This document shows positions 21,941-39,445 of a stretch of 64,000 nt of DNA, piece after piece (the first letter of the stretch is position 1; each line of letters opens with the position of its first letter). Under the pieces are notes generated by a model that was not told the DNA's origin, did no database searches, and saw only the letters and a list, made by a program, of their open reading frames with translations. This DNA comes from Haladaptatus cibarius D43 (GTDB lineage Archaea > Halobacteriota > Halobacteria > Halobacteriales > Haladaptataceae). The translations under genes were made by a program, and so were the position numbers. The stretch is from NCBI RefSeq assembly GCF_000710615.1, contig NZ_JDTH01000002.1, positions 1,728,082-1,792,081 of the forward strand, in the 5' to 3' direction.

Positions 21941-22333
21941 ATGGCTAGTGACATTCCCGAACTCACCGACGACGAAGAAACTGCGTTGCACGAACTCGAA
22001 CTGGGTATCGAAGGGCTACGAAAGGCACACGGCTATCTCGTCCACTTTCATCACGCGACGGGTCGGGCGATGAACCACCTCCAGGCCGCCGAGTCGAACC
22101 TCCGCGAGGCGGGCCACGACGAATTTGCCGACCACATCCGGGACGAAATCCTTCCCAGTGGCGTCCTCGGTGATGACAGATGGACGTACGAACTGCTCGA
22201 AACGTTCGAAGAAGAGTTTTTCGAGGACGTGTTAGCGTTCGAGCAGGCGGTCTGCGAGAGCGTCGCGGAGGGCGAACGCCACGTCAAAGAGCGCCGACAA
22301 CAGCGCAGATGGCGAAAACGGGCGAGGGACTGA
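21941..22333 (+). CDS. helical protein of unknown function, haloarchaeal type
   Basis: A 130-residue acidic protein from ATG 21941 (the in-frame TTG at 21920 is not preferred). It is predicted all-helical: ETALHELELGIEGLRKAHGYLVHFHHATGRAMNHLQ, then FADHIRDEILPSGVLGDDRWTYELLETFEEEF, with a strongly basic tail KERRQQRRWRKRARD. His/Asp/Glu spacing in YLVHFHHATG might suggest metal binding, but no motif is established. It converges on the UspA gene with 16 nt between stops. Confidence 0.7.
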   Translation: MASDIPELTDDEETALHELELGIEGLRKAHGYLVHFHHATGRAMNHLQAAESNLREAGHDEFADHIRDEILPSGVLGDDRWTYELLETFEEEFFEDVLAFEQAVCESVAEGERHVKERRQQRRWRKRARD

Positions 22334-22349
22334 TTCGGTACTTCGATAC

Positions 22350-22799
22350 TCAGTCGTCTCGCACGAACGTCACGGGGCACGGTGCCGACAGCATCACTTC
22401 CTGTGCGGTGCTTCCGAACACCGCTTTTCCGGTCGGCGAGCGTTTTCGTCCACCGACGAAAACGCCGTCCGCGTTCACGTCCTCTGCGAGTTTCACGATG
22501 GTTTCGCCGTGTTCGCCGATTGCGCCGCGAACGGAGTAGCCGATGTCTTCTCTGTCCAGCGCGGACGAAAGCGAGCGAATCGTCGCGTGGCGCGCCGCCA
22601 CCTCGTCCGAGTTCGGTTGCCCGGACGGGTCGTAGTCGAGTTGGTCGATTACGTCGTCGAACTCGTCGTCGGTGAATACGTGTGCGAGGACAACCGTCGC
22701 GCCTGTTGGCCCTGCCACGTCAGCCACGGCGGATGCGAGTTTTCCTGTCCGGTCTGCGTCGCCCGGCCCAACGGCGAGCAGAATCGTCTCAATTGCCAT
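22350..22799 (-). CDS. universal stress protein UspA-family
   Basis: A 149-residue single UspA domain. The N-terminal strand is TILLAVGPGDADRTGKLASAVAD and the C-terminal nucleotide-binding pattern is GVFVGGRKRSPTGKAVFGSTAQEVMLSAPCPV, which fits the G-2x-G-9x-G(S/T) loop of ATP-binding members. The role is stress adaptation of unknown mechanism. It is divergent from the SDR gene at 22903. Confidence 0.92.
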   Translation of the reverse strand: MAIETILLAVGPGDADRTGKLASAVADVAGPTGATVVLAHVFTDDEFDDVIDQLDYDPSGQPNSDEVAARHATIRSLSSALDREDIGYSVRGAIGEHGETIVKLAEDVNADGVFVGGRKRSPTGKAVFGSTAQEVMLSAPCPVTFVRDD

Positions 22800-22902
22800 G
22801 GTATTAGCTCTTCGTGCAGAATCTTAAAACTGCGGGGGTTAACTCGGAATCGAAGAAACTGAGACGCCAAGATAGTTGCTTCTCCTCCACGAAGAAGCCA
22901 CC

Positions 22903-23640
22903 ATGATTTCACCGGAGTTGGACGGCAGAGTCACACTGGTCACTGGAAGTTCGAAGGGCGTCGGAAAGGAACTCCTGCTGTCGCTTGCTGACTGCGGGGC
23001 CGACGTGGCGGTTCACTACCGCTCCAGCGAGGAAGAAGCACGCGAAGTCGCCGAGGAAGCCCGAAATCGCGGTTGCACCGCGATTTCGGTGCAGGGAGAC
23101 GTGACCGACCCGGACAGCGTGGACGAACTGTTTGCGACCATCGAAGACGAACTCGGAGCCGTTGACGTACTGGTGAACAACGTCGGCCCGTTCGCACCCG
23201 ACCACTGGGAAGACATCTCGTTTGAAACGTGGAATCTGGTGTTGCAGGGGAACGTCAACGGCACCTACCTTTGCTCGAAGCGAGCGCTCCCGGGCATGCG
23301 CGACAATGAATTCGGACGAATCGTCAACGTGGGCTACGCCAGTTCGGAGAAGGGCCTCATCAGTCCGAAAAACGCGCCGTACTTCATGGCCAAGGCTGGC
23401 GTCCTGATGTTCACCCGCATGCTCGCGGCAGACACGCAAGACGATGGTATCACCGTCAACGCCGTGTCACCCTACGTCGTAGAGAACTCGGACGTGTTTC
23501 CCGACGACTTGCCTCGTGGCCGCCCCGCGAAATTCGAGGATATGGCTCAAGCAGTGCGATTCTTTCTGGACGAGGACAGCGACTACTTGAGCGGCGTGAA
23601 CGTGGAAGTCGATGGCGGCTGGTTGCCGGAAACAGTCTAA
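22903..23640 (+). CDS. short-chain dehydrogenase/reductase
   Basis: A 245-residue classical SDR oxidoreductase from ATG 22903. Cofactor motif TGSSKGVGKE is near residues 12-21, followed by NNVGP, then the catalytic Ser in NVGYASSEKG and YFMAK (Tyr-x-x-x-Lys), and VNAVSPYVVE. An Arg after the second beta-strand (HYRSSEEEA) suggests NADP(H). The C-terminal LSGVNVEVDGGWLPE is typical of 3-oxoacyl-ACP-reductase-like members. The substrate is unknown; no pathway neighbours are present. Confidence 0.9.
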   Translation: MISPELDGRVTLVTGSSKGVGKELLLSLADCGADVAVHYRSSEEEAREVAEEARNRGCTAISVQGDVTDPDSVDELFATIEDELGAVDVLVNNVGPFAPDHWEDISFETWNLVLQGNVNGTYLCSKRALPGMRDNEFGRIVNVGYASSEKGLISPKNAPYFMAKAGVLMFTRMLAADTQDDGITVNAVSPYVVENSDVFPDDLPRGRPAKFEDMAQAVRFFLDEDSDYLSGVNVEVDGGWLPETV

Positions 23641-23672
23641 CACTGATTCCACTTCGCTCTATCTGATTTCGT

Positions 23673-24254
23673 CTAATTCCCTTCCAACGCGTCGATGGCG
23701 ATTGCCCCGGCGACGAGCGCAGTTTTCGGCACCGAACCCGTATCGTGGATTCGAATGTCGTACCGATCGCGGAGCGAAAAGTGCCCCTCGATTTCGCCTA
23801 TCGAATCGCCATCGGGAGACGTAATCGAGTATTTGTGCGGGAGGAACGAGAGGAAATCGATGAGCGAGCGCAGTGCTTCGAGAACCGCACTGCGGGAGTC
23901 GACTTCCGCGATTTCGGTTCCGTTGGGTTGCTTGATTGTCCAACGGTGGTGGAAGAACGTGAAGTTCTTGTTGAGGATTAAGAGCGGTTCGTCCGAACCC
24001 TCCTCGGTCAAGACGTAATCGCCCGCCACGTCGAGGATGTTCTTCGCTTTTACGCGGAAGACGACGTTCCCGTCGGCGTCGTAAAACGGGAACTCCTCTT
24101 TCATCTTGAACATCTTCTGTTTCGACTTCAGGACGAGGTCACCGGCGGAATCGTACACCTTGTACTTGTTCCGGAAGTAGCTCTGTTCGACCGTGTACTC
24201 GTCGTCATCGAGGACGACGCCGCCGATGCTTCGCTCCTGAAATGGGTCTTCCAT
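23673..24254 (-). CDS. LURP-one-related (Tubby-like) protein
   Basis: A 193-residue protein from ATG 24254 with the LOR beta-barrel pattern: EYTVEQSYFRNKYKVYDSAGDLVLKSKQ, FPFYDADGNVVFRVKAKNIL, then WTIKQPNGTEIAEVDS and YSITSPDGDSIGEIEGHFS. The short hydrophobic end TALVAGAIAIDALE could bury in the barrel as in Tubby-like folds. The biochemical role of archaeal members is unknown. It lies between an SDR (convergent) and an ABC exporter (same strand, ending 65 nt upstream). Confidence 0.82.
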   Translation of the reverse strand: MEDPFQERSIGGVVLDDDEYTVEQSYFRNKYKVYDSAGDLVLKSKQKMFKMKEEFPFYDADGNVVFRVKAKNILDVAGDYVLTEEGSDEPLLILNKNFTFFHHRWTIKQPNGTEIAEVDSRSAVLEALRSLIDFLSFLPHKYSITSPDGDSIGEIEGHFSLRDRYDIRIHDTGSVPKTALVAGAIAIDALEGN

Positions 24255-24319
24255 TGTCAATCGGTTGTAACTGTCTGCTATTTAAATTTGAGGTTGAACG
24301 TTCGATTACAGTTCGAGAA

Positions 24320-26281
24320 TTACTTGCCGCCGTCTGCCTGTGCATCTGCGCTTTCGGGGCCTTCACCAGCATCTTCGACTCCTTCGACCTCGGCACGTCG
24401 CCGAATCGCACGCTCGATGAACTCCTGCGGGAGCGATTCGATTTCCCCGGCCTGCACCCGCCAGAGGTTGGCGTACAGTCCGTCGAGGGCAAGTAGGTCG
24501 TCGTGGGTGCCGCGCTCGACAATCTCACCATCGTCCAACACTGCGATTTCGTCGGCATCCTTGATGGTCGAAAGTCGGTGGGCGATTGCAAAGGTCGTCT
24601 TTTCCCGGACGAGTCGGCCCAAACTGCGCTGGATGAGCGCCTCGGTTTCGGTATCGACGTGGCTCGTGGCTTCATCGAGGACGAGGATAGCGGGGTTCTT
24701 GAGAATCGTCCGCGCGATGGAGAGGCGCTGGCGCTGGCCGCCCGAGAGTTTCATGCCGCGCTCGCCGACCATCGTGTCGTAGCCCTCCGGAAGATTGACG
24801 ATGAACTCGTGTGCCTCTGCGGATTTTGCGGCGGAGATGATTTCCTCCTCGCTCGCGTCGAACGTACCGTAAGCGATGTTCTCCTTTACCGACCCGTAGA
24901 ACAGGAAGGGCTCTTGGCTGACGTAGCCGATGGACCGACGAAGGCTTCGCAGGTTCACGTCACGAATATCCGTGCCGTCAATTCTGATTTCCCCGTTATC
25001 AACGTCGTACATCCGGAGGAAGAGTTTCAGAACGGTGGATTTCCCCGCTCCAGTCGGCCCGACGAGCGCAATCGTGTCGCCACGTTCAGCCCGCAAATCG
25101 ACGTTCGAAATGACGGTTTCGTCGTCGTAGCCAAAGCTCACATCGTCGTACTCCACCGCTCCGTCAGGCACGTCTAAATCCGGTGCATCCGCGCTCTCGT
25201 CCAGCGTGCCGCGTTCGTTCATCAGGTCGAAAACGCGGACGCTCGACGCCTTCGCGCGCTGGTAGATGTTGATGATTTGGCCGAATTGGGCCATCGGCCA
25301 GATGAACTGCTGACTTAGCACGATGAAGGTGACGAACTCGCCGGGTTCGAGGGTTCCCGAAAACGGGCCGGGCGGCCCGGAGAGAAGCCAAAACCCGCCG
25401 ACGGAGAACGTGATTGCGAAGCCGATTCCGGTGAGGAGGCTCAGTCCGGGGAAGAACGTAATCCGCGTTCTGATGGCGTCCCAGTTGGCGTCGTAGTAGT
25501 CCCGCGAGGCGTCCTCGACGCGGTCGGATTCGTACTCCTCCGCCGTCTCGGTTTTGATAACGCGAACCCCGCCGAGGTTGTTTTCCAGTCGTGAATTGAG
25601 CGCGCCGACGCTGGCCCGCATGACGGCGTATTTCGGCTGGATGATTCTGACGAACAGATAGGTAAACAGCGCCAACAGCGGCACCGGCAGGAGCGCGACC
25701 AGCGCGAGTGCCGGATTCAGCCAAAACAGGAGGAACCCGATTCCGGCCACCATCACGACGATTCGGAGCGCCGAACTCATTCCGTCGTTCAGGAACGTCT
25801 CCAACTGGTTCACGTCGTTGTTCAGAATCGACATCAACTCGCCCGTTTGCTTGTCGTCGAAAAAGCCCATATCGAGCAACTGCATCCTGTCGTAGGTGTC
25901 CACCCGAAGCGCGTGCTGGACGCCCTGCGCGAAGCGATTCCAGCCCCAGCCTTCCAGCCACGAGAAGGTTGCACCGATGAAGAACGACAGCGCGATGATG
26001 GCGATGGAGAGCCACAACTGCCCGGTCGAAGTTTGCGGAATCCACTCTGCGGGGAACAGGGGAAGGTGAAACTCACGCTGATTCAGGAATATCGCGTCGA
26101 TGGCGAGGCCGAGGATGAACGGCGGGAGCAGGCCGGACAAACGCGAGAGCATCGTGGCGACGATGCCGAGAGCGAACTCGTGGACGTGGCCTTTGCCGTA
26201 CTCGGCGTACAGTCGCCACATGGCGTTTTGGGTTGGTTTGCGAGGATTAGGGAGTTTGCTGGAGAGGCTGAATGGAATCAC
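24320..26281 (-). CDS. ABC exporter, fused membrane and ATPase domains
   Basis: A 653-residue half-transporter of the MsbA/LmrA type that acts as a homodimer. It has six helices between about residues 35 and 340, and a nucleotide-binding domain with Walker A GPTGAGKST, Q-loop SQEPFLF, signature LSGGQRQRLS, Walker B ILVLDEATS and H-loop AHRLSTI. The substrate is unknown. The GTG at 26281 is used here; ATG 26221 (MWRLYAEYG) is the alternative. A 6-bp inverted repeat, CACCTA/TAGGTG (26279-26302), overlaps the GTG and could be an operator if the later start is right. An AT-rich insertion lies directly upstream. Confidence 0.9.
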   Translation of the reverse strand: MIPFSLSSKLPNPRKPTQNAMWRLYAEYGKGHVHEFALGIVATMLSRLSGLLPPFILGLAIDAIFLNQREFHLPLFPAEWIPQTSTGQLWLSIAIIALSFFIGATFSWLEGWGWNRFAQGVQHALRVDTYDRMQLLDMGFFDDKQTGELMSILNNDVNQLETFLNDGMSSALRIVVMVAGIGFLLFWLNPALALVALLPVPLLALFTYLFVRIIQPKYAVMRASVGALNSRLENNLGGVRVIKTETAEEYESDRVEDASRDYYDANWDAIRTRITFFPGLSLLTGIGFAITFSVGGFWLLSGPPGPFSGTLEPGEFVTFIVLSQQFIWPMAQFGQIINIYQRAKASSVRVFDLMNERGTLDESADAPDLDVPDGAVEYDDVSFGYDDETVISNVDLRAERGDTIALVGPTGAGKSTVLKLFLRMYDVDNGEIRIDGTDIRDVNLRSLRRSIGYVSQEPFLFYGSVKENIAYGTFDASEEEIISAAKSAEAHEFIVNLPEGYDTMVGERGMKLSGGQRQRLSIARTILKNPAILVLDEATSHVDTETEALIQRSLGRLVREKTTFAIAHRLSTIKDADEIAVLDDGEIVERGTHDDLLALDGLYANLWRVQAGEIESLPQEFIERAIRRRAEVEGVEDAGEGPESADAQADGGK

Positions 26282-26386
26282 CTAAGTCGAAGATTCTAGG
26301 TGCTCAGTGGGTTTGTGTGTTTCAGTAGGTAGTATCTTATGAAACAGTTGGAAGAGCGAGTAATTTTGGATGCCTACTCCGAACAA

Positions 26387-27064
26387 TCACTGATCTAATA
26401 ATTTTAACAGAAGGTTGACAGTATGTAGTACTGAGTAGGCGTAGCTCTCATCTATTTCATCAATGAATCTGTGGCTCACTGGATTTCTTAATGCCTGAAA
26501 TGCCCCTCGATATAAGAACATTATCCCTTCTTTCTCGCCCTCCGTTTGACCAATTGTAATGTCTCCGTTTTTGGGATGGAAAGCCTCGGTAGCCAACTTT
26601 GAGCCAATTATGTCTTGGTTGAGGTTCCCTTCTTGTCGTATCCTTTCTTCAAGAATTATAAATGCCTCCCGGACAGTACCTTGATAATGTCCATTTTCGT
26701 ACTGAAGAAGACACTTCTCTACCAGTTCAGCGTCTAAGCTTTGTTCATTAACTGGTGGAAAGATGGATATATCAATGGAGGATGGTTCAAGATTACACAC
26801 TTCCATTAATAGACTATCTAATTCATAATATTTCTCGCTTCTACCGTCCTTATATTCCATAAGCCAGCACGTATTATTTGCTTTTCCCTTGTGAGAGTGA
26901 AAAATATCATCAGCAGGGATATCCGAATCACATCGTCGAACTTCAAAATCATCTGTACCAAGATTTTTAAAAGATTTTTCAATTACTAATAATTTCACAG
27001 AATCGTACTGAATCGTGAAGCTATCTCCTGTTTCAGAGTAGAGTGTGAGAGTGACCTGTTCCAT
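26387..27064 (-). CDS. TIGR02391 (Ymh) family protein, Abi-like, in an AT-rich insertion
   Basis: A 225-residue protein whose C-terminal half matches the Ymh/TIGR02391 pattern: REAFIILEERIRQEG, GSKLATEAFHPKNGDI, then EGIMFLYRGAFQALRNPVSHR, ending in a helix with LHTVNLLLKLL. The arginine-asparagine-proline-His cluster (RNPVSH) recalls HEPN-like RNase sites, and members are often found near defence loci; both points are inference. The N-terminal half is a separate beta-rich domain. Codon use is AT-rich, unlike uvrA and the ABC exporter on either side, which points to acquisition. No partner gene is adjacent. Confidence 0.75.
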   Translation of the reverse strand: MEQVTLTLYSETGDSFTIQYDSVKLLVIEKSFKNLGTDDFEVRRCDSDIPADDIFHSHKGKANNTCWLMEYKDGRSEKYYELDSLLMEVCNLEPSSIDISIFPPVNEQSLDAELVEKCLLQYENGHYQGTVREAFIILEERIRQEGNLNQDIIGSKLATEAFHPKNGDITIGQTEGEKEGIMFLYRGAFQALRNPVSHRFIDEIDESYAYSVLHTVNLLLKLLDQ

Positions 27065-27248
27065 TTATACAACCATTTCTTACTTCACTCATATATGCGT
27101 TCGTGGTTTATAATATTGTGAACTAGAGCTATAATCAAGTTTGGCGGATATATTGCAGTTCTATGCAAGTATTATCCATTTTCACTTTCACTCCGCTTTC
27201 ATCTGCAACCGACAGGCATACCCTCATTCAGTCGCTGTCTGAGGATAG

Positions 27249-30191
27249 ATGAGCAAGGACTACATCGAAGTGCGGGGGGCCGAGGAGCACAACCTCAAAG
27301 ACCTCGACGTACGGATTCCGCGCGAGGAGTTCAACGTCGTCACCGGCCTATCTGGGTCGGGCAAGTCCTCGCTCGCCTTCGAGACGGTGTACGCTGAGGG
27401 ACAGCGACGATACATCGAGAGCCTGTCGGCCTACGCCCGGAACTTCCTCGGACAGATGGACAAACCGCAGGTCGAGAACGTCGAAGGCTTGTCGCCCGCC
27501 ATCTCAATCGACCAGAAGAACGCGGCGAACAACCCGCGTTCGACGGTCGGAACCGTGACCGAACTGCACGACTACCTGCGACTACTCTACGCCCGCGTAG
27601 GGACGCCCCACTGCCCGCAGTGTGGGCAGGAAGTCGGCGAGCAGAGCGCCCAGAACATGGTTCGGCGGGTGCTAGACTTGCCGGAGGGCACGAAGGCGAA
27701 AATCGCCGCGCCGGTCGTCCGCGACCAAAAAGGCGCGTTCGCGGACTTGTTCGACGACCTCGTTTCGGACGGCTACTCCCGCGTCGAAGTGGACGGCGAG
27801 GAGTTCGACCTGACGCTCGACAAACCCGAACTCGACAAAAACTACGATCACACAATCGACGTTATCGTGGACAGGGTGAAAGTCAGCGAGGAAGCGCGCT
27901 CGCGCATCACCGACAGCGTGGAAACCGCGCTGGAGGAAGCCGAGGGCATGATGAAACTCATCGTGCCGAATCCACCGGAAGACGTGGATTTGGGTTCGGA
28001 GTCACGCTCGACTGGCGATCTGGCTGGTGAGGGCGATTCTCGACTCGCGGTGGAGTTCTCCGAAGACCTCGCCTGCACGAACTGCGGCATCGACTTCCGC
28101 GAAATCGAGACGCGCAGTTTTTCGTTCAACAGTCCACATGGCGCGTGTCCCGAGTGTGAGGGAATCGGCGAGACGAAAGAAGTTGACGAGGGCCTCGTCG
28201 TCCAAGACCCGAGCAAGCAGTTGAAACACGTCTTCGAACCGTGGGGCTACCAGCGGACGTACTATCGACGACAACTGGATTCCGTGGCCCGGCACTTCGA
28301 CGTGAAGTTGACGACACCGTTCGAAGAGTTGGACGAGGACATTCAGGACGCCTTCCTCTACGGAACTAACGAGGACGTGCTGTTCAAATGGGACACGAAA
28401 AACGGCACTCGCCGGAAAGAAGAACCGTTCGAGGGCGTGATGAACAACCTCGAACGTCGCTACGTCGAAACCGACAGCGACCGGGCGCGAAAGCACATCG
28501 AGGACTACATGGCGGTGACGGAGTGTCCCGCCTGTGACGGCACGCGACTGCGACCACAGAGTCGGTCGGTGTACGTCAATGGCACGTCGATTTCACAGGT
28601 CAACCGGATGTCCATCGGGGACGCACTGGTTCACTTCGAGAATCTCGAAGCGAATCTAACAGACCGCCAGAACCGCATCGCCGAGGAGATTTTGAAGGAG
28701 ATTCGCGCCCGTCTGGGGTTCATGGAGGAAGTCGGCCTGCAGTACCTCACGCTCGACCGTGAAGCCTCAACGCTTTCGGGCGGGGAAAGCCAGCGGATTC
28801 GGCTTGCGACACAAATCGGCTCCGGACTAGTCGGCGTGCTGTACGTGCTTGACGAACCGTCGATTGGACTCCACCAGCGCGACAACGACCGCCTGCTGAA
28901 CACGCTCTGTGAACTCCGTGATTTGGGCAACACCCTCATCGTGGTGGAACACGACGAGGAGACGATGCGCCGCGCGGACAACGTCATCGACATGGGGCCC
29001 GGCCCGGGAAGACGCGGCGGCGAAGTCGTCGTTCAGGGCGACGTGGACGAGGTGATGGCCCACGACGAGAGCATCACGGGCGACTATCTTGCCGGACGCG
29101 AAGAGATACCAGTGCCTGACGAGCGTCGAGAACACGACACGCACGTCACGATTCGCGGTGCCCGCCAACACAACCTGAAAAACCTCGACGTGGACATTCC
29201 GGTCGGGACGTTTACGGCCATCACGGGCGTTTCGGGGTCTGGTAAGTCCACACTGATGCACGACATCCTGTACAAGGGATTGGCCCGCGAGATGAACGAC
29301 AACACGTCCGTCGACCCCGGCGAACACGACGCCATCGATGGGATGGACGATATCGAGAAAGTGCGACTCATCGACCAGTCGCCAATCGGCAGAACCCCGC
29401 GGTCGAATCCAGCGACCTACACCGGCGTCTTCGACTACGTCCGCGAAGCGTTCGCGGAGACGAAACTCGCCAAACAGCGCGGCTACGAGAAGGGTCGCTT
29501 CTCGTTCAACGTGAAAGGCGGACGCTGTGAGGAGTGTGGCGGACAGGGAACCGTGAAAATCGAGATGAACTTCCTGTCGGACGTGTACGTCCCGTGTGAG
29601 GAGTGCGAAGGCGCACGCTACAACGACGAAACGCTGGACGTGACCTATCGCGGCAAGACGATTGCCGAAGTCCTCGACATGTCCGTCGAGGATGCCCACG
29701 ACTTCTTCGAACACGATTCGCGGGTTCGGCGCAGGCTGAAACTGCTGAAGGATGTGGGACTCGACTACATGAAACTCGGTCAACCGTCCACGACGCTGTC
29801 GGGCGGCGAAGCCCAACGCGTCAAACTCGCCGAGGAACTCGGCAAGAAATCGACCGGTGACACGCTCTATCTGCTCGACGAACCGACGACTGGCCTCCAC
29901 CACGAAGACGAGCGAAAACTCATCTCGGTGCTCCAGCGACTCACCGAGAAGGGCAACAGCATCGTCGTCATCGAACACGAATTAGACCTCGTAAAGAACG
30001 CAGACCACGTCATCGACCTCGGCCCGGAAGGTGGCGAGAAGGGCGGCGAAATCGTCGCCACGGGAACGCCCGAAGAAGTTGCGCGAAACGACGATTCGTA
30101 CACCGGGCAGTATCTCCGCGATAAACTCCCCGCCGTCGAACTCGATGGTCCGCGTGCCGACAGACCTGCACCTGCCGCGATGGACGATTGA
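27249..30191 (+). CDS. uvrA: excinuclease ABC subunit A
   Basis: Damage-recognition ATPase of bacterial-type nucleotide excision repair, acquired by haloarchaea. The 980-residue product has the usual layout: first Walker A GLSGSGKSSLAFE (about residue 31), a zinc pair CPQC followed later by CTNCG and CPEC, signature LSGGESQR, second Walker A GVSGSGKSTLMHD, the C-terminal zinc module CEECGGQG with CEECEGARYN, the second LSGGEAQR and DEPTTGLHHED. A Pro/Ala-rich acidic tail ends the protein. The start at ATG 27249 gives the standard MSKDYIEVRGAEEHNL. uvrB and uvrC are not adjacent. Confidence 0.98.
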   Translation: MSKDYIEVRGAEEHNLKDLDVRIPREEFNVVTGLSGSGKSSLAFETVYAEGQRRYIESLSAYARNFLGQMDKPQVENVEGLSPAISIDQKNAANNPRSTVGTVTELHDYLRLLYARVGTPHCPQCGQEVGEQSAQNMVRRVLDLPEGTKAKIAAPVVRDQKGAFADLFDDLVSDGYSRVEVDGEEFDLTLDKPELDKNYDHTIDVIVDRVKVSEEARSRITDSVETALEEAEGMMKLIVPNPPEDVDLGSESRSTGDLAGEGDSRLAVEFSEDLACTNCGIDFREIETRSFSFNSPHGACPECEGIGETKEVDEGLVVQDPSKQLKHVFEPWGYQRTYYRRQLDSVARHFDVKLTTPFEELDEDIQDAFLYGTNEDVLFKWDTKNGTRRKEEPFEGVMNNLERRYVETDSDRARKHIEDYMAVTECPACDGTRLRPQSRSVYVNGTSISQVNRMSIGDALVHFENLEANLTDRQNRIAEEILKEIRARLGFMEEVGLQYLTLDREASTLSGGESQRIRLATQIGSGLVGVLYVLDEPSIGLHQRDNDRLLNTLCELRDLGNTLIVVEHDEETMRRADNVIDMGPGPGRRGGEVVVQGDVDEVMAHDESITGDYLAGREEIPVPDERREHDTHVTIRGARQHNLKNLDVDIPVGTFTAITGVSGSGKSTLMHDILYKGLAREMNDNTSVDPGEHDAIDGMDDIEKVRLIDQSPIGRTPRSNPATYTGVFDYVREAFAETKLAKQRGYEKGRFSFNVKGGRCEECGGQGTVKIEMNFLSDVYVPCEECEGARYNDETLDVTYRGKTIAEVLDMSVEDAHDFFEHDSRVRRRLKLLKDVGLDYMKLGQPSTTLSGGEAQRVKLAEELGKKSTGDTLYLLDEPTTGLHHEDERKLISVLQRLTEKGNSIVVIEHELDLVKNADHVIDLGPEGGEKGGEIVATGTPEEVARNDDSYTGQYLRDKLPAVELDGPRADRPAPAAMDD

Positions 30192-36408: not shown

Positions 36409-36851
<443 letters not shown>

Positions 36852-37940
36852 ATGAGTAGAGAATTAATAGGAAGTCGACGTAACGTAATGAAGAAAATGG
36901 GGGCTGGTGCACTCTTCCCTATCGGAAGCTTTGCCAGTCAACAGGGTAGTACAGAAAAACTCCCTGAGTTGCGAAATCAAGATGGTGTGGTAAAGTGGTT
37001 GGAAGTTCCACAATCTTGGGCTGCTCAAAAACGACGAGCTGAGAAAGTTTCTAATGCACTGAAAAATAGATATGCGAACGATGAGGGTGTTGTTGAAGTT
37101 GGTATCGTTGCCAGCCCGGAAAAATTCGGTGATAAACGAGGGCTTCAGGTTGAGGTCGGAATAGACAAGAGTAAAATCAAAACTGAAATCGAAGACCATG
37201 TGGACAATGTTCCTGTCCAAACTACCGAGAAGCCAGAGGCTCCCGTTGACCTTTGTCTCAACACAAATTATAGTGGACTTCCAGGTGGAGTGAAGATTTA
37301 CGACAGTGATACTTCGCCGTATTCGATCGGTACCACTGCTTGGAAGGTAGACTGGTATGGTGATTGTATATTGACCGCGGCACACACTGTTGAGGATACT
37401 TATGACGTCTACGGTGATCCCACTCTGTCCCCTCAGAAGGTCGGAGGGGTGGCTCTCACCGAATCAGCTTCAGCGACCGACGTGGCTGTGTTGAGCTCTA
37501 ACCGTAACATCCCAAACAAAATTATCGGAGATGGATCTACATACCAAATTGGTGGATGGGTAACCGAGAGTGGAATTTCAAGTCGGGTTTCGGACTTCTT
37601 CGATGGTTACAGACAAATGGGCATTACCACCGGAGAAACCGAAGGTGGGCTTGGTAAATACCATATCGGAGACAGTTACCACTCAGGTACACCGTCCTAC
37701 GACGGGCATGGTGTCAGAGGTAGTGCAGACGTTGCTAAGGGTGATTCTGGAGGCCCTGCCTTTTCACTCCACAATGGTGACGCTTACGTCACTCATATAG
37801 TCACACAGGGAGATCCGAAAGGCGGCCGATACACATCTAACTCCAATTGTTACGATACAGATCCATTCAAAAAGAGTATTGGTACTGCAGCGTACTATCT
37901 CAATAACGAGTACCCGATTCAAGGTTCTTCACACAGTTAG
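36852..37940 (+). CDS. Tat-exported trypsin-like serine protease
   Basis: A 362-residue secreted protease of the chymotrypsin (S1) fold. The N-terminus has a twin-arginine signal (SRRNVMKKMGAGALFPIGSFA). The catalytic triad is His178 in CILTAAHTVED, Asp210 in ATDVAVLSS and Ser299 in KGDSGGPAF, all present. A region of about 130 residues between the signal and the protease domain may be a propeptide. ATG 36852 is used. The gene is AT-rich, as is the whole island, and reads as horizontally acquired. The target protein is unknown. Confidence 0.85.
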   Translation: MSRELIGSRRNVMKKMGAGALFPIGSFASQQGSTEKLPELRNQDGVVKWLEVPQSWAAQKRRAEKVSNALKNRYANDEGVVEVGIVASPEKFGDKRGLQVEVGIDKSKIKTEIEDHVDNVPVQTTEKPEAPVDLCLNTNYSGLPGGVKIYDSDTSPYSIGTTAWKVDWYGDCILTAAHTVEDTYDVYGDPTLSPQKVGGVALTESASATDVAVLSSNRNIPNKIIGDGSTYQIGGWVTESGISSRVSDFFDGYRQMGITTGETEGGLGKYHIGDSYHSGTPSYDGHGVRGSADVAKGDSGGPAFSLHNGDAYVTHIVTQGDPKGGRYTSNSNCYDTDPFKKSIGTAAYYLNNEYPIQGSSHS

Positions 37941-38137
37941 AGCCAACACGAAAGCAGAAATGTGAGTTTTTAAATATTATAAATAGAAACGCATTTTTAT
38001 ACTGAGACGAACGAGAGGGCTTGAAATGGGCTGATTAACATCTTCAAAGAAGGAGACACTTGCCGGTTAGGTGCCTGGACGGAACAAATTATTTTTCTTA
38101 TATATTTATAATATTATTATTTTATCAATTCCCGCGA

Positions 38138-38761
38138 TTAAGATCTTGATTGTAACGAAGAATGGGTGTGACATCGCCAAATAAACACAAGTAAAATGGT
38201 GAAAAGGCCGATGGTGAAGAACAATTCACCTAGCGAAAGCTGAATTAGCTGGTCGGTGGCACCACTAGTCGGGGAAGGAGTATCATAAGAAACGGAAAAG
38301 TTTTGATCTCGCGGTTCGCGGAAGAACTGCATCAACAAGTCGATTAGCTGACTTACGAGACCCAAGGCGATAATCGAACCAAGAAGGCGAGAGAGCGAAT
38401 TTCGAAGTGTTTTTTCGTTGTTGCTCTTTGTAGCGAAGAGAACGAGTGATTCGTTCGTCGGTGCGTACACCTTCATTTCGCTACCTGAGTTGGAGTACCA
38501 TGTGTCAGTAACCTCAATAAGGTTTGCTTCCTCCAACTTCTTGAGATGGTATTTGATATTTTGAAGGGAGCTATCCATTTCGTCAGAAAGACTCGATGCT
38601 GTCGCTGGTGTAGTATAAAGAGAAGCAAGAACATCACGAGTTGTAGCCGAACTGAGGACAGAGAATACCTCTTCGGCCTCCTCATCATTGATACTCAGTA
38701 AATAGCTCTGATTGGTAGGTTTGTGCGTACTCGTTGACTGATGGGGGAATAGACTACTCAT
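38138..38761 (-). CDS. ArsR-like winged-helix regulator with C-terminal membrane helices
   Basis: A 207-residue protein. Its N-terminal helix-turn-helix reads EEVFSVLSSATTRDVLASLYTTPATASSLSDEMDSSLQNIKYHLKKLEEANLIEV, the ArsR-type haloarchaeal pattern. Two hydrophobic segments follow (SLSRLLGSIIALGLVSQLIDLLMQF and LGELFFTIGLFTILLVFIW), so it is probably membrane-anchored. Divergent from the lipoprotein gene at 38873 with a shared 111-nt promoter region; this suggests it regulates that gene or itself. It is AT-rich like the rest of the island. Confidence 0.8.
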   Translation of the reverse strand: MSSLFPHQSTSTHKPTNQSYLLSINDEEAEEVFSVLSSATTRDVLASLYTTPATASSLSDEMDSSLQNIKYHLKKLEEANLIEVTDTWYSNSGSEMKVYAPTNESLVLFATKSNNEKTLRNSLSRLLGSIIALGLVSQLIDLLMQFFREPRDQNFSVSYDTPSPTSGATDQLIQLSLGELFFTIGLFTILLVFIWRCHTHSSLQSRS

Positions 38762-38872
38762 AGATGTTAGTTAGTCATTTAGCCTTACGGATAAAAGAGA
38801 TTACCCCCAACTAAAATCGCTGTTTTAGTTCACAGAAGGTATTTACTGGAACAACAGTGAATATGATTTACA

Positions 38873-39445
38873 ATGGAACGACGTACCTACCTAACAGGGG
38901 CGGCAACAGTTCTCGCAACATTGGCGGGCTGCACAGCAAACGGAATCAAAAACATCGGAACTTCACAGATGAGACAAATAACAGACGTTTCCGTATCCGG
39001 TTTAGAATCGACTGACCTCTCCGTTGAAGCGTCGGTCAAGCAAGCAAAAATTACATCAAATCATACCGGCGAAATTTCGCTCACCATCTCTTGGAACGGT
39101 GATGAAAAACGGACTCTCTCATTCGGAAGTTCGATACCGTACTCGTCGCCGAAAAAGAGTACGAAACAGGAGGGAGTTCTGCTGGTAGATAAGGAGTCTA
39201 ATTTCGAACGGCGAAACACCGATACCTGGATTCCAAAAAGGGACAACTTGGAGACCGGTGACCTCACTTTGATGGGGGCAACACTTGAACCAGGACAAAG
39301 CGTCTCTCATACTTGGGAGGTTTGGGCACATCCTGGCAAAGCGTCGCGAATCGAATCTGGAACATACACGTTTACTGACTCGATTCGCATGGGTGACTCT
39401 GAATCAGTGGACTGGTCTCTGACTGTCGAGATCGGTGGAGAATAA
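38873..39445 (+). CDS. Tat-dependent lipoprotein of unknown function
   Basis: A 190-residue protein with a Tat signal (MERRTYLTGAATVLATLAGC) ending in a lipobox cysteine at residue 20. The mature part is beta-rich, with alternating EISLTISWNGDEKRTLSFGSS and QSVSHTWEVWAHPGK, resembling an Ig-like or cupredoxin-like fold without visible metal ligands. No family is recognised. The divergent membrane-bound HTH protein is the obvious candidate regulator. The 3' end of the gene is followed by the short DUF7344 gene on the other strand. Confidence 0.7.
   Translation: MERRTYLTGAATVLATLAGCTANGIKNIGTSQMRQITDVSVSGLESTDLSVEASVKQAKITSNHTGEISLTISWNGDEKRTLSFGSSIPYSSPKKSTKQEGVLLVDKESNFERRNTDTWIPKRDNLETGDLTLMGATLEPGQSVSHTWEVWAHPGKASRIESGTYTFTDSIRMGDSESVDWSLTVEIGGE

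Follow-up and report, generated by a model that had tools for sequence, protein, structure and literature searches.

An AT-rich, lineage-specific Ymh-family HEPN gene between an ABC exporter and uvrA in Haladaptatus cibarius D43, a candidate self-contained abortive-infection effector

Between an ABC exporter and uvrA in Haladaptatus cibarius D43 lies an intact open reading frame (ORF) of 225 aa (26387-27064, minus strand; ATG start, no internal stops) whose C-terminal domain is well supported, by family membership and by predicted fold, as a HEPN domain, and whose first 105 residues have no match in Pfam, NCBIfam or PHROGs (0 PHROGs families). Positions here and below are those of the window, the whole stretch of 64,000 nucleotides that we analysed. 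The reading we favour, with moderate confidence, is that the gene encodes a horizontally acquired, self-contained effector of the abortive-infection type, in which an autoinhibited HEPN RNase would be released by an infection signal. The family assignment and the RNase idea for Ymh were already published in 2013, and to that extent our reading is largely a rediscovery; what is new is that a single gene was acquired in this lineage at a variable site, and that no relatives are known for its N-terminal part. The features on which the argument draws are as follows.

26387..27064, minus strand: Ymh/TIGR02391 HEPN protein, 225 aa (ORF; PF09509, 6.5e-25; TIGR02391, 1.4e-13)
26396..26740, minus strand: HEPN (Ymh) domain, residues 109-223 (Pfam match; AlphaFold2 model; 12 best VIA-align rows HEPN-type)
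26471..26488, minus strand: Rx4H motif R193-N-P-V-S-H198 (residue numbering; helix end in the model; 27/28 distinct domains)
26642..26650, minus strand: E139-E140-R141 of helix 127-146, with a conserved acidic/basic pair; candidate second HEPN motif (alignment)
26750..27064, minus strand: N-terminal part, residues 1-105, without a recognised domain, proposed regulatory or sensor domain (Pfam and homologue searches)
27090..27097, minus strand: TATA-like CATATATG (by eye in the upstream sequence)
26327..27174, no strand: AT-rich segment, 848 bp, 37.9% G+C (blastn against eight sister loci; composition)

The Ymh gene has a G+C content of 38.6% (34.5% at third codon positions) against 57.7% for the whole window, the lowest among the 56 ORFs picked there. 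Its product has a predicted pI of 4.6, acidic proteins being usual in haloarchaea. The TATA-like element is centred about 29 bases upstream of the ATG, a distance that would fit a leaderless transcript given the usual spacing of haloarchaeal promoters. On one side the exporter occupies 24320-26281 (minus strand; the start conserved in relatives lies at about 26221), and on the other uvrA occupies 27249-30191 (plus strand). When the 55 other picked ORFs were compared with PADLOC, nearly all matches among the best 25 of 26 families were of ABC-ATPase, UvrD-helicase or mad2/mad3/mad8 type, which we read as generic, and no specific defence neighbour appeared among them; the window copy stands among housekeeping genes. 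No ORF of at least 60 aa besides the Ymh gene is listed in 26200-27300, and within its own genome the gene is the sole match to its protein. The sequence-only reading had described an orphan Ymh/TIGR02391 gene of foreign composition, standing alone between an ABC exporter and uvrA; all of this is borne out, “orphan” in the sense of a single match in the genome and only generic PADLOC matches among the listed window families. Elsewhere in the window, at 36843-39445, further ORFs of low G+C (45-49%), secreted-protein-like and regulator-like, form another possible acquired patch.

Alignment of positions 22001-29000 with the corresponding loci of eight sister Haladaptatus genomes (blastn, E 1e-5) delimits the acquired segment. 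Homology to the sisters breaks off near 26322-26326, or at 26221 in three of them, and in all eight picks up again at 27175-27183; the 848-bp segment is found at this place in one of nine Haladaptatus genomes. The gap between the homology ends is nearly empty in five sisters, at about 10-120 bp, and in the other three (about 540, 600 and 1930 bp) it is filled with other DNA; no part of the gap DNA of the eight sisters aligned to the window segment (blastn, E 1e-5). Because three sisters carry other DNA in the gap, we regard the site as variable and the Ymh segment as its lineage-specific occupant. An older filler is common to two sisters (G003 and G001), a third (G004) combines part of it with ORFs of 255 and 85 aa, and the Ymh segment probably replaced such filler in the present lineage. 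The AT-rich insertion proposed from the sequence is thereby upheld and refined, and a search of the eight sister genomes for vertical syntenic copies found none. All nine Haladaptatus genomes have uvrA, and any match to the Ymh protein is confined to two of the nine, D43 itself and one genome (G008) where the match has another architecture at another place. Sequence just upstream of the exporter and just upstream of uvrA is kept on either side of the segment.

Site-specific integration was considered and set aside, the edges of 26327-27174 showing only short, chance-like repeats and no long direct repeat; nor was an integrase or an IS-sized ORF seen inside the segment. In two sister loci (L040 in G003 and L042 in G001) the sequence just upstream of uvrA is flanked by the inverted repeat GCGGAGTGAAAGTGAA ... 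TTCACTTTCACTCCGC, which is imperfect in L042 and one arm of which also occurs in the window at about 27179-27195. In the same exporter-uvrA gap of G004 (L041), the 255-aa ORF has a secretion-signal-like start and a glycine-rich middle, and the 85-aa ORF is membrane-like.

The C-terminal domain is placed by two curated models, PF09509 over residues 109-223 (E 6.5e-25; 87.8 bits, cut-off 25) and TIGR02391 over residues 112-225 (E 1.4e-13; 51 bits, cut-off 39.45), both above threshold; weak and partial PADLOC matches fall in the same region (PD-Lambda-3_B, 4.3e-6; Aga_HEPN, 0.0021). An AlphaFold2 model built from 11 sequences gives domain helices at 112-123, 127-146, 154-161, 175-193 and 206-224, with pLDDT per ten-residue block of 63-93 over most of the domain and below 50 in the motif loop 193-201. 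Compared with known structures by VIA-align, the model returned HEPN-type entries in all of rows 1-12, the first unrelated row having a Z of 4.9. At the top stood AF0298 (Z 10.4, rmsd 2.8, 103 residues aligned) and sacsin (Z 10.2, rmsd 2.6, 98 aligned), followed by TM0613 (8.2), Csm6 (6.6 and 6.0), an LPD-3 complex (6.3), RnlA (6.0, 5.9, 5.7 and 5.7), LsoA (6.0) and AbiV (5.2); the Csm6, RnlA, LsoA and LPD-3 entries are counted as HEPN-containing on general background or on PMC3710099, not on the VIA-align table. For a helical bundle, a Z near 10 lends support without being decisive by itself. Foldseek with the full model gave 0 matches at E <=0.001 (best E 0.22), so the fold case rests on VIA-align, and a sequence search of solved structures gave 0 matches at E up to 10.

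Within this domain R193-N-P-V-S-H198 is the HEPN Rx4H motif, with the polar N194 after the arginine, and in the model R193 closes helix 175-193, the third long helix. The sequence-only reading had taken an RNPVSH-type cluster to suggest an RNase-like function; the predicted fold and the conservation agree with a putative RNase-type C-terminus. Of 28 distinct homologous domains examined for loss of the catalytic residues, 27 retain RNPxxH. The exception is a protein with FNPLKH (L016:1477-2424, minus strand, G066), in which R is lost and N, P and H are kept and whose gene adjoins a HerA-like ATPase; it is possibly a catalytically changed member, and since it lacks the arginine, not all members of the family need be active. 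E139 and R141 are invariant in 16 haloarchaeal proteins. Their spacing is Ex1R, whereas the second conserved acidic residue of HEPN proteins, in helix 2, often stands in Ex3[KR], and adding two homologues from viral contigs removes them from the invariant columns.

The N-terminal part (residues 1-105) resists assignment by every route we took. The N-terminal parts of 29 other family members, extracted and grouped by phmmer at E 1e-3, fell into seven groups, one of them merely a 30-residue stub, and that of the window protein joined none (best E 1.3), in keeping with the earlier remark that it is unlike the common form. With the limit set at E 1, PF10083 (DUF2321) does not match the window protein. 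A search of 391 class genomes with the N-terminal part gave matches in 14 at E up to 0.1, one being the query itself; of the 13 non-self matches, the nine with loci were realigned and dismissed as chance, being short and local and, in several cases, in antisense-looking frames. The best non-self match (E 5.4e-4, again at E 0.003) covers 43 residues of a 95-aa frame in G413; other leading matches lie in frames of 184 and 150 aa, and the 95- and 150-aa frames, which are alike, might conceivably be genuine. Plasmids gave no match at E up to 1, phages a single match at E 0.8 under the same limit, and viral contigs none. Structure prediction, which the sequence-only reading had suggested for both domains, succeeded in part: the C-terminal part is HEPN-like, and the N-terminal part yields no reliable fold (mean pLDDT 40.2 when modelled alone). 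A ubiquitin-like (beta-grasp) N-terminus was also considered, on the strength of a strand-strand-helix-strand order in residues 3-46 of the full model, and rejected: pLDDT per block there is 33-51, the separate model differs and is worse, and VIA-align on it reaches Z <=4.8. Exchange of N-termini on one effector domain is a usual layout in defence proteins. From its repeated occurrence in this family we infer that residues 1-105 are a swapped-in regulatory or sensing domain, perhaps a lid; as the searches gave no credible homologue and the AlphaFold model is poor, “sensor” is used by analogy.

Relatives are sporadic. PF09509 was found in 17 of 391 class genomes, and no full-length twin emerged from three overlapping genome sets: 18 of 392 order genomes matched, all C-terminally apart from the query; 7 of 146 genomes of one family matched, and 8 of 170 of another, the last with C-terminal matches and also a weak match to residues 29-70 in G413. 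Phage records searched with the whole protein gave no match; nine plasmid records matched. The four closest homologues, from Halovenus, Halorhabdus, Halorientalis and Halorubrum, are 55-58% identical in the HEPN domain. A Halosimplex aquaticum plasmid (L071, L074) carries two Ymh gene copies, one with a shorter frame of 243 aa.

That this family is often found near defence genes, as the sequence-only reading stated, is supported by a survey of 18 haloarchaeal Ymh loci, with some misfits. Within 4 kb of these genes, Ymh excluded, we picked 119 ORFs of at least 100 aa mechanically, some of them possibly false, and compared them with 129 control ORFs from 18 places in 17 genomes, chosen once by the author and mostly on large contigs, unlike several Ymh loci, which lie on plasmids or small contigs. 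At E 1e-10, PADLOC reported 118 families from the neighbours and 5 from the controls, a ratio that overstates the difference because families were counted rather than proteins and many overlap on one helicase or ATPase. Pfam found RE_AspBHI_N, McrBC, SNF2/ResIII helicases, ThsB_TIR, phage integrase and DUF4238 among the 119. Of 20 author-chosen neighbours scanned singly at E 1e-5, 12 matched, nine of them at <=1e-10 and in nine different loci of the 18: an OLD/Gabija-type ATPase (adjoining the Haladaptatus DYF46 Ymh copy), Dsr1, two BREX/DISARM-type helicases, DrmB, ThsB, PbeA, a methyltransferase and a HerA-like ATPase, the last (L063) of a type also found in controls (mad8). In the Halovenus locus (L049:8825-11630) a ThsB-type TIR gene and a small ORF resembling a membrane protein lie close to a DUF2321-Ymh gene. 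The misfits are Natrinema and Halosimplex plasmids (L106 and L107), where a conserved cluster takes the place of such genes: a sliding clamp, an AAA ATPase, two hypothetical proteins, the TIGR02391 gene, an M48 protease and a VWA protein. This cluster is a possible multi-gene system that employs a Ymh HEPN protein. Guilt by association applies to the relatives but not to the window copy, near which the PADLOC matches listed are only of generic ATPase type.

Comparison with described systems shows both likenesses and differences. RnlA and LsoA have N-terminal domains and antitoxins of their own; with these proteins (RNase LS type) and with AbiV the window protein has its predicted HEPN fold in common (VIA-align Z 5.2-6.0), although the sequences are distant, at 9-15% identity where aligned. 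Residues 107-224 match the B component of PD-Lambda-3 (PADLOC PDLC03987, E 4.3e-6) over just positions 139-261 of the 270-position profile, its C-terminal part, and the other component was not among the best 25 of 26 families for the 55 window ORFs. The DUF2321 zinc-ribbon + Ymh proteins are of similar length and share the HEPN domain at the 55-58% identity given above, but theirs is a cysteine-rich N-terminus (PF10083, 3.7e-21 in the one scanned, with which the three other closest homologues cluster by N-terminus) that has no counterpart in the window protein. Passages of the 2013 account by Anantharaman et al. place Ymh in the HEPN superfamily, with a conserved Rx4-6H, and describe it as solos, as fusions to pMORC, AbiJ-NTD1 and AbiTii, and in operons with restriction-modification genes (PMC3710099), a link that part of a 2012 paper had pointed out (PMC3506569). 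The window domain fits both curated models of that family and keeps Rx4H, but Pfam recognises none of the fusion partners so described in its N-terminus. In layout, the protein is most like a Staphylococcus aureus prophage defence protein whose mechanism has been worked out, Tha, of 301 aa, with an N-terminus that is not assignable and a C-terminal HEPN domain bearing R265NSIMH270; phage tail proteins trigger Tha and the H270A mutant is inactive (PMC11087260). The likeness is one of layout: a single protein, an unassigned N-terminal part and a C-terminal HEPN domain with RNxxxH. For Tha, RNase activity and defence are proven and a phage trigger is known, whereas for the window protein they are predicted.

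It is by this analogy that we favour an autoinhibited HEPN RNase. The C-terminal domain would be a metal-independent RNase acting in a dimer, as HEPN RNases usually do, its active site formed by R193, N194 and H198 and aided by the helix carrying the conserved E139/R141. The N-terminal ~105 residues would hold it inactive, and we assume that a lone RNase without a visible antidote must stay silent until triggered; release would follow a trigger, probably a viral product or an infection-induced change, whereupon host and viral RNA would be cut and the infected cell would stop growing. RNase activity, dimer, autoinhibition, trigger and antiviral outcome are all inferred. The gene has a promoter-like element of its own and is flanked by the preserved upstream regions of the exporter and uvrA, both conserved, so its gain or loss would, we propose, be harmless.

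Three other explanations rank below this one. The most serious of them, which we nonetheless think unlikely, is a HEPN toxin of the toxin-antitoxin or addiction type, serving in stress or in maintenance of the segment rather than against viruses, with the protein's own N-terminal part or an unlinked factor as antidote. Such toxins are well known from toxin-antitoxin pairs (PMC3710099), relatives occur on plasmids too, and the window copy has no specific defence gene nearby; yet no small partner ORF of at least 60 aa is listed beside it in 26200-27300, and the restriction, BREX/DISARM-type, Thoeris-type and OLD-type genes next to its relatives are more typical of defence. Also unlikely, and placed after the toxin, is a stranded relic: a copy brought in alongside a defence island, which has lost its partner or had its N-terminus replaced and has ceased to function. 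That the gene is alone and AT-rich would suit a relic, as would a slight difference in composition between its halves (35.9% G+C in the N-terminal part, 41.0% in the C-terminal part) and the lack of N-terminal homologues, as might result from a chance fusion or from degradation, but 225 codons remain open and stop-free in AT-rich DNA, the motif residues are all intact and the gene has its own TATA-like element.

An improbable last candidate is a strain-specific RNA-processing enzyme or signalling domain unconnected with defence. Some HEPN proteins, Las1 and Swt1 for example, do process cellular RNA (PMC3710099), and a DNA-repair gene adjoins; sisters, however, have uvrA without this gene beside it, so the adjacency belongs to the site and not to the gene, and variable N-termini and a patchy distribution (any match in 2 of 9 genus genomes, PF09509 in 17 of 391 class genomes) do not suit a housekeeping role.

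We return, then, to the autoinhibited, self-contained HEPN RNase. A literature search found no paper reporting a virus challenge of a Ymh-HEPN protein in a haloarchaeon. Both the catalytic half and its defence link have been published before, so the finding is less surprising. A bolder version, which we advance only tentatively and hold to be doubtful, is that the N-terminal 105 residues are a virus-sensing or regulatory domain of a new kind, captured by a Ymh HEPN RNase. The whole would be a one-gene haloarchaeal defence system of minimal size, and Ymh proteins would form an exchangeable series of one RNase domain with at least seven unrelated N-terminal modules. If the abortive-infection reading is true, the window protein would be a very small archaeal abortive-infection protein and a natural member of a series in which the same HEPN domain carries different N-termini, and comparing those modules could map trigger specificity.
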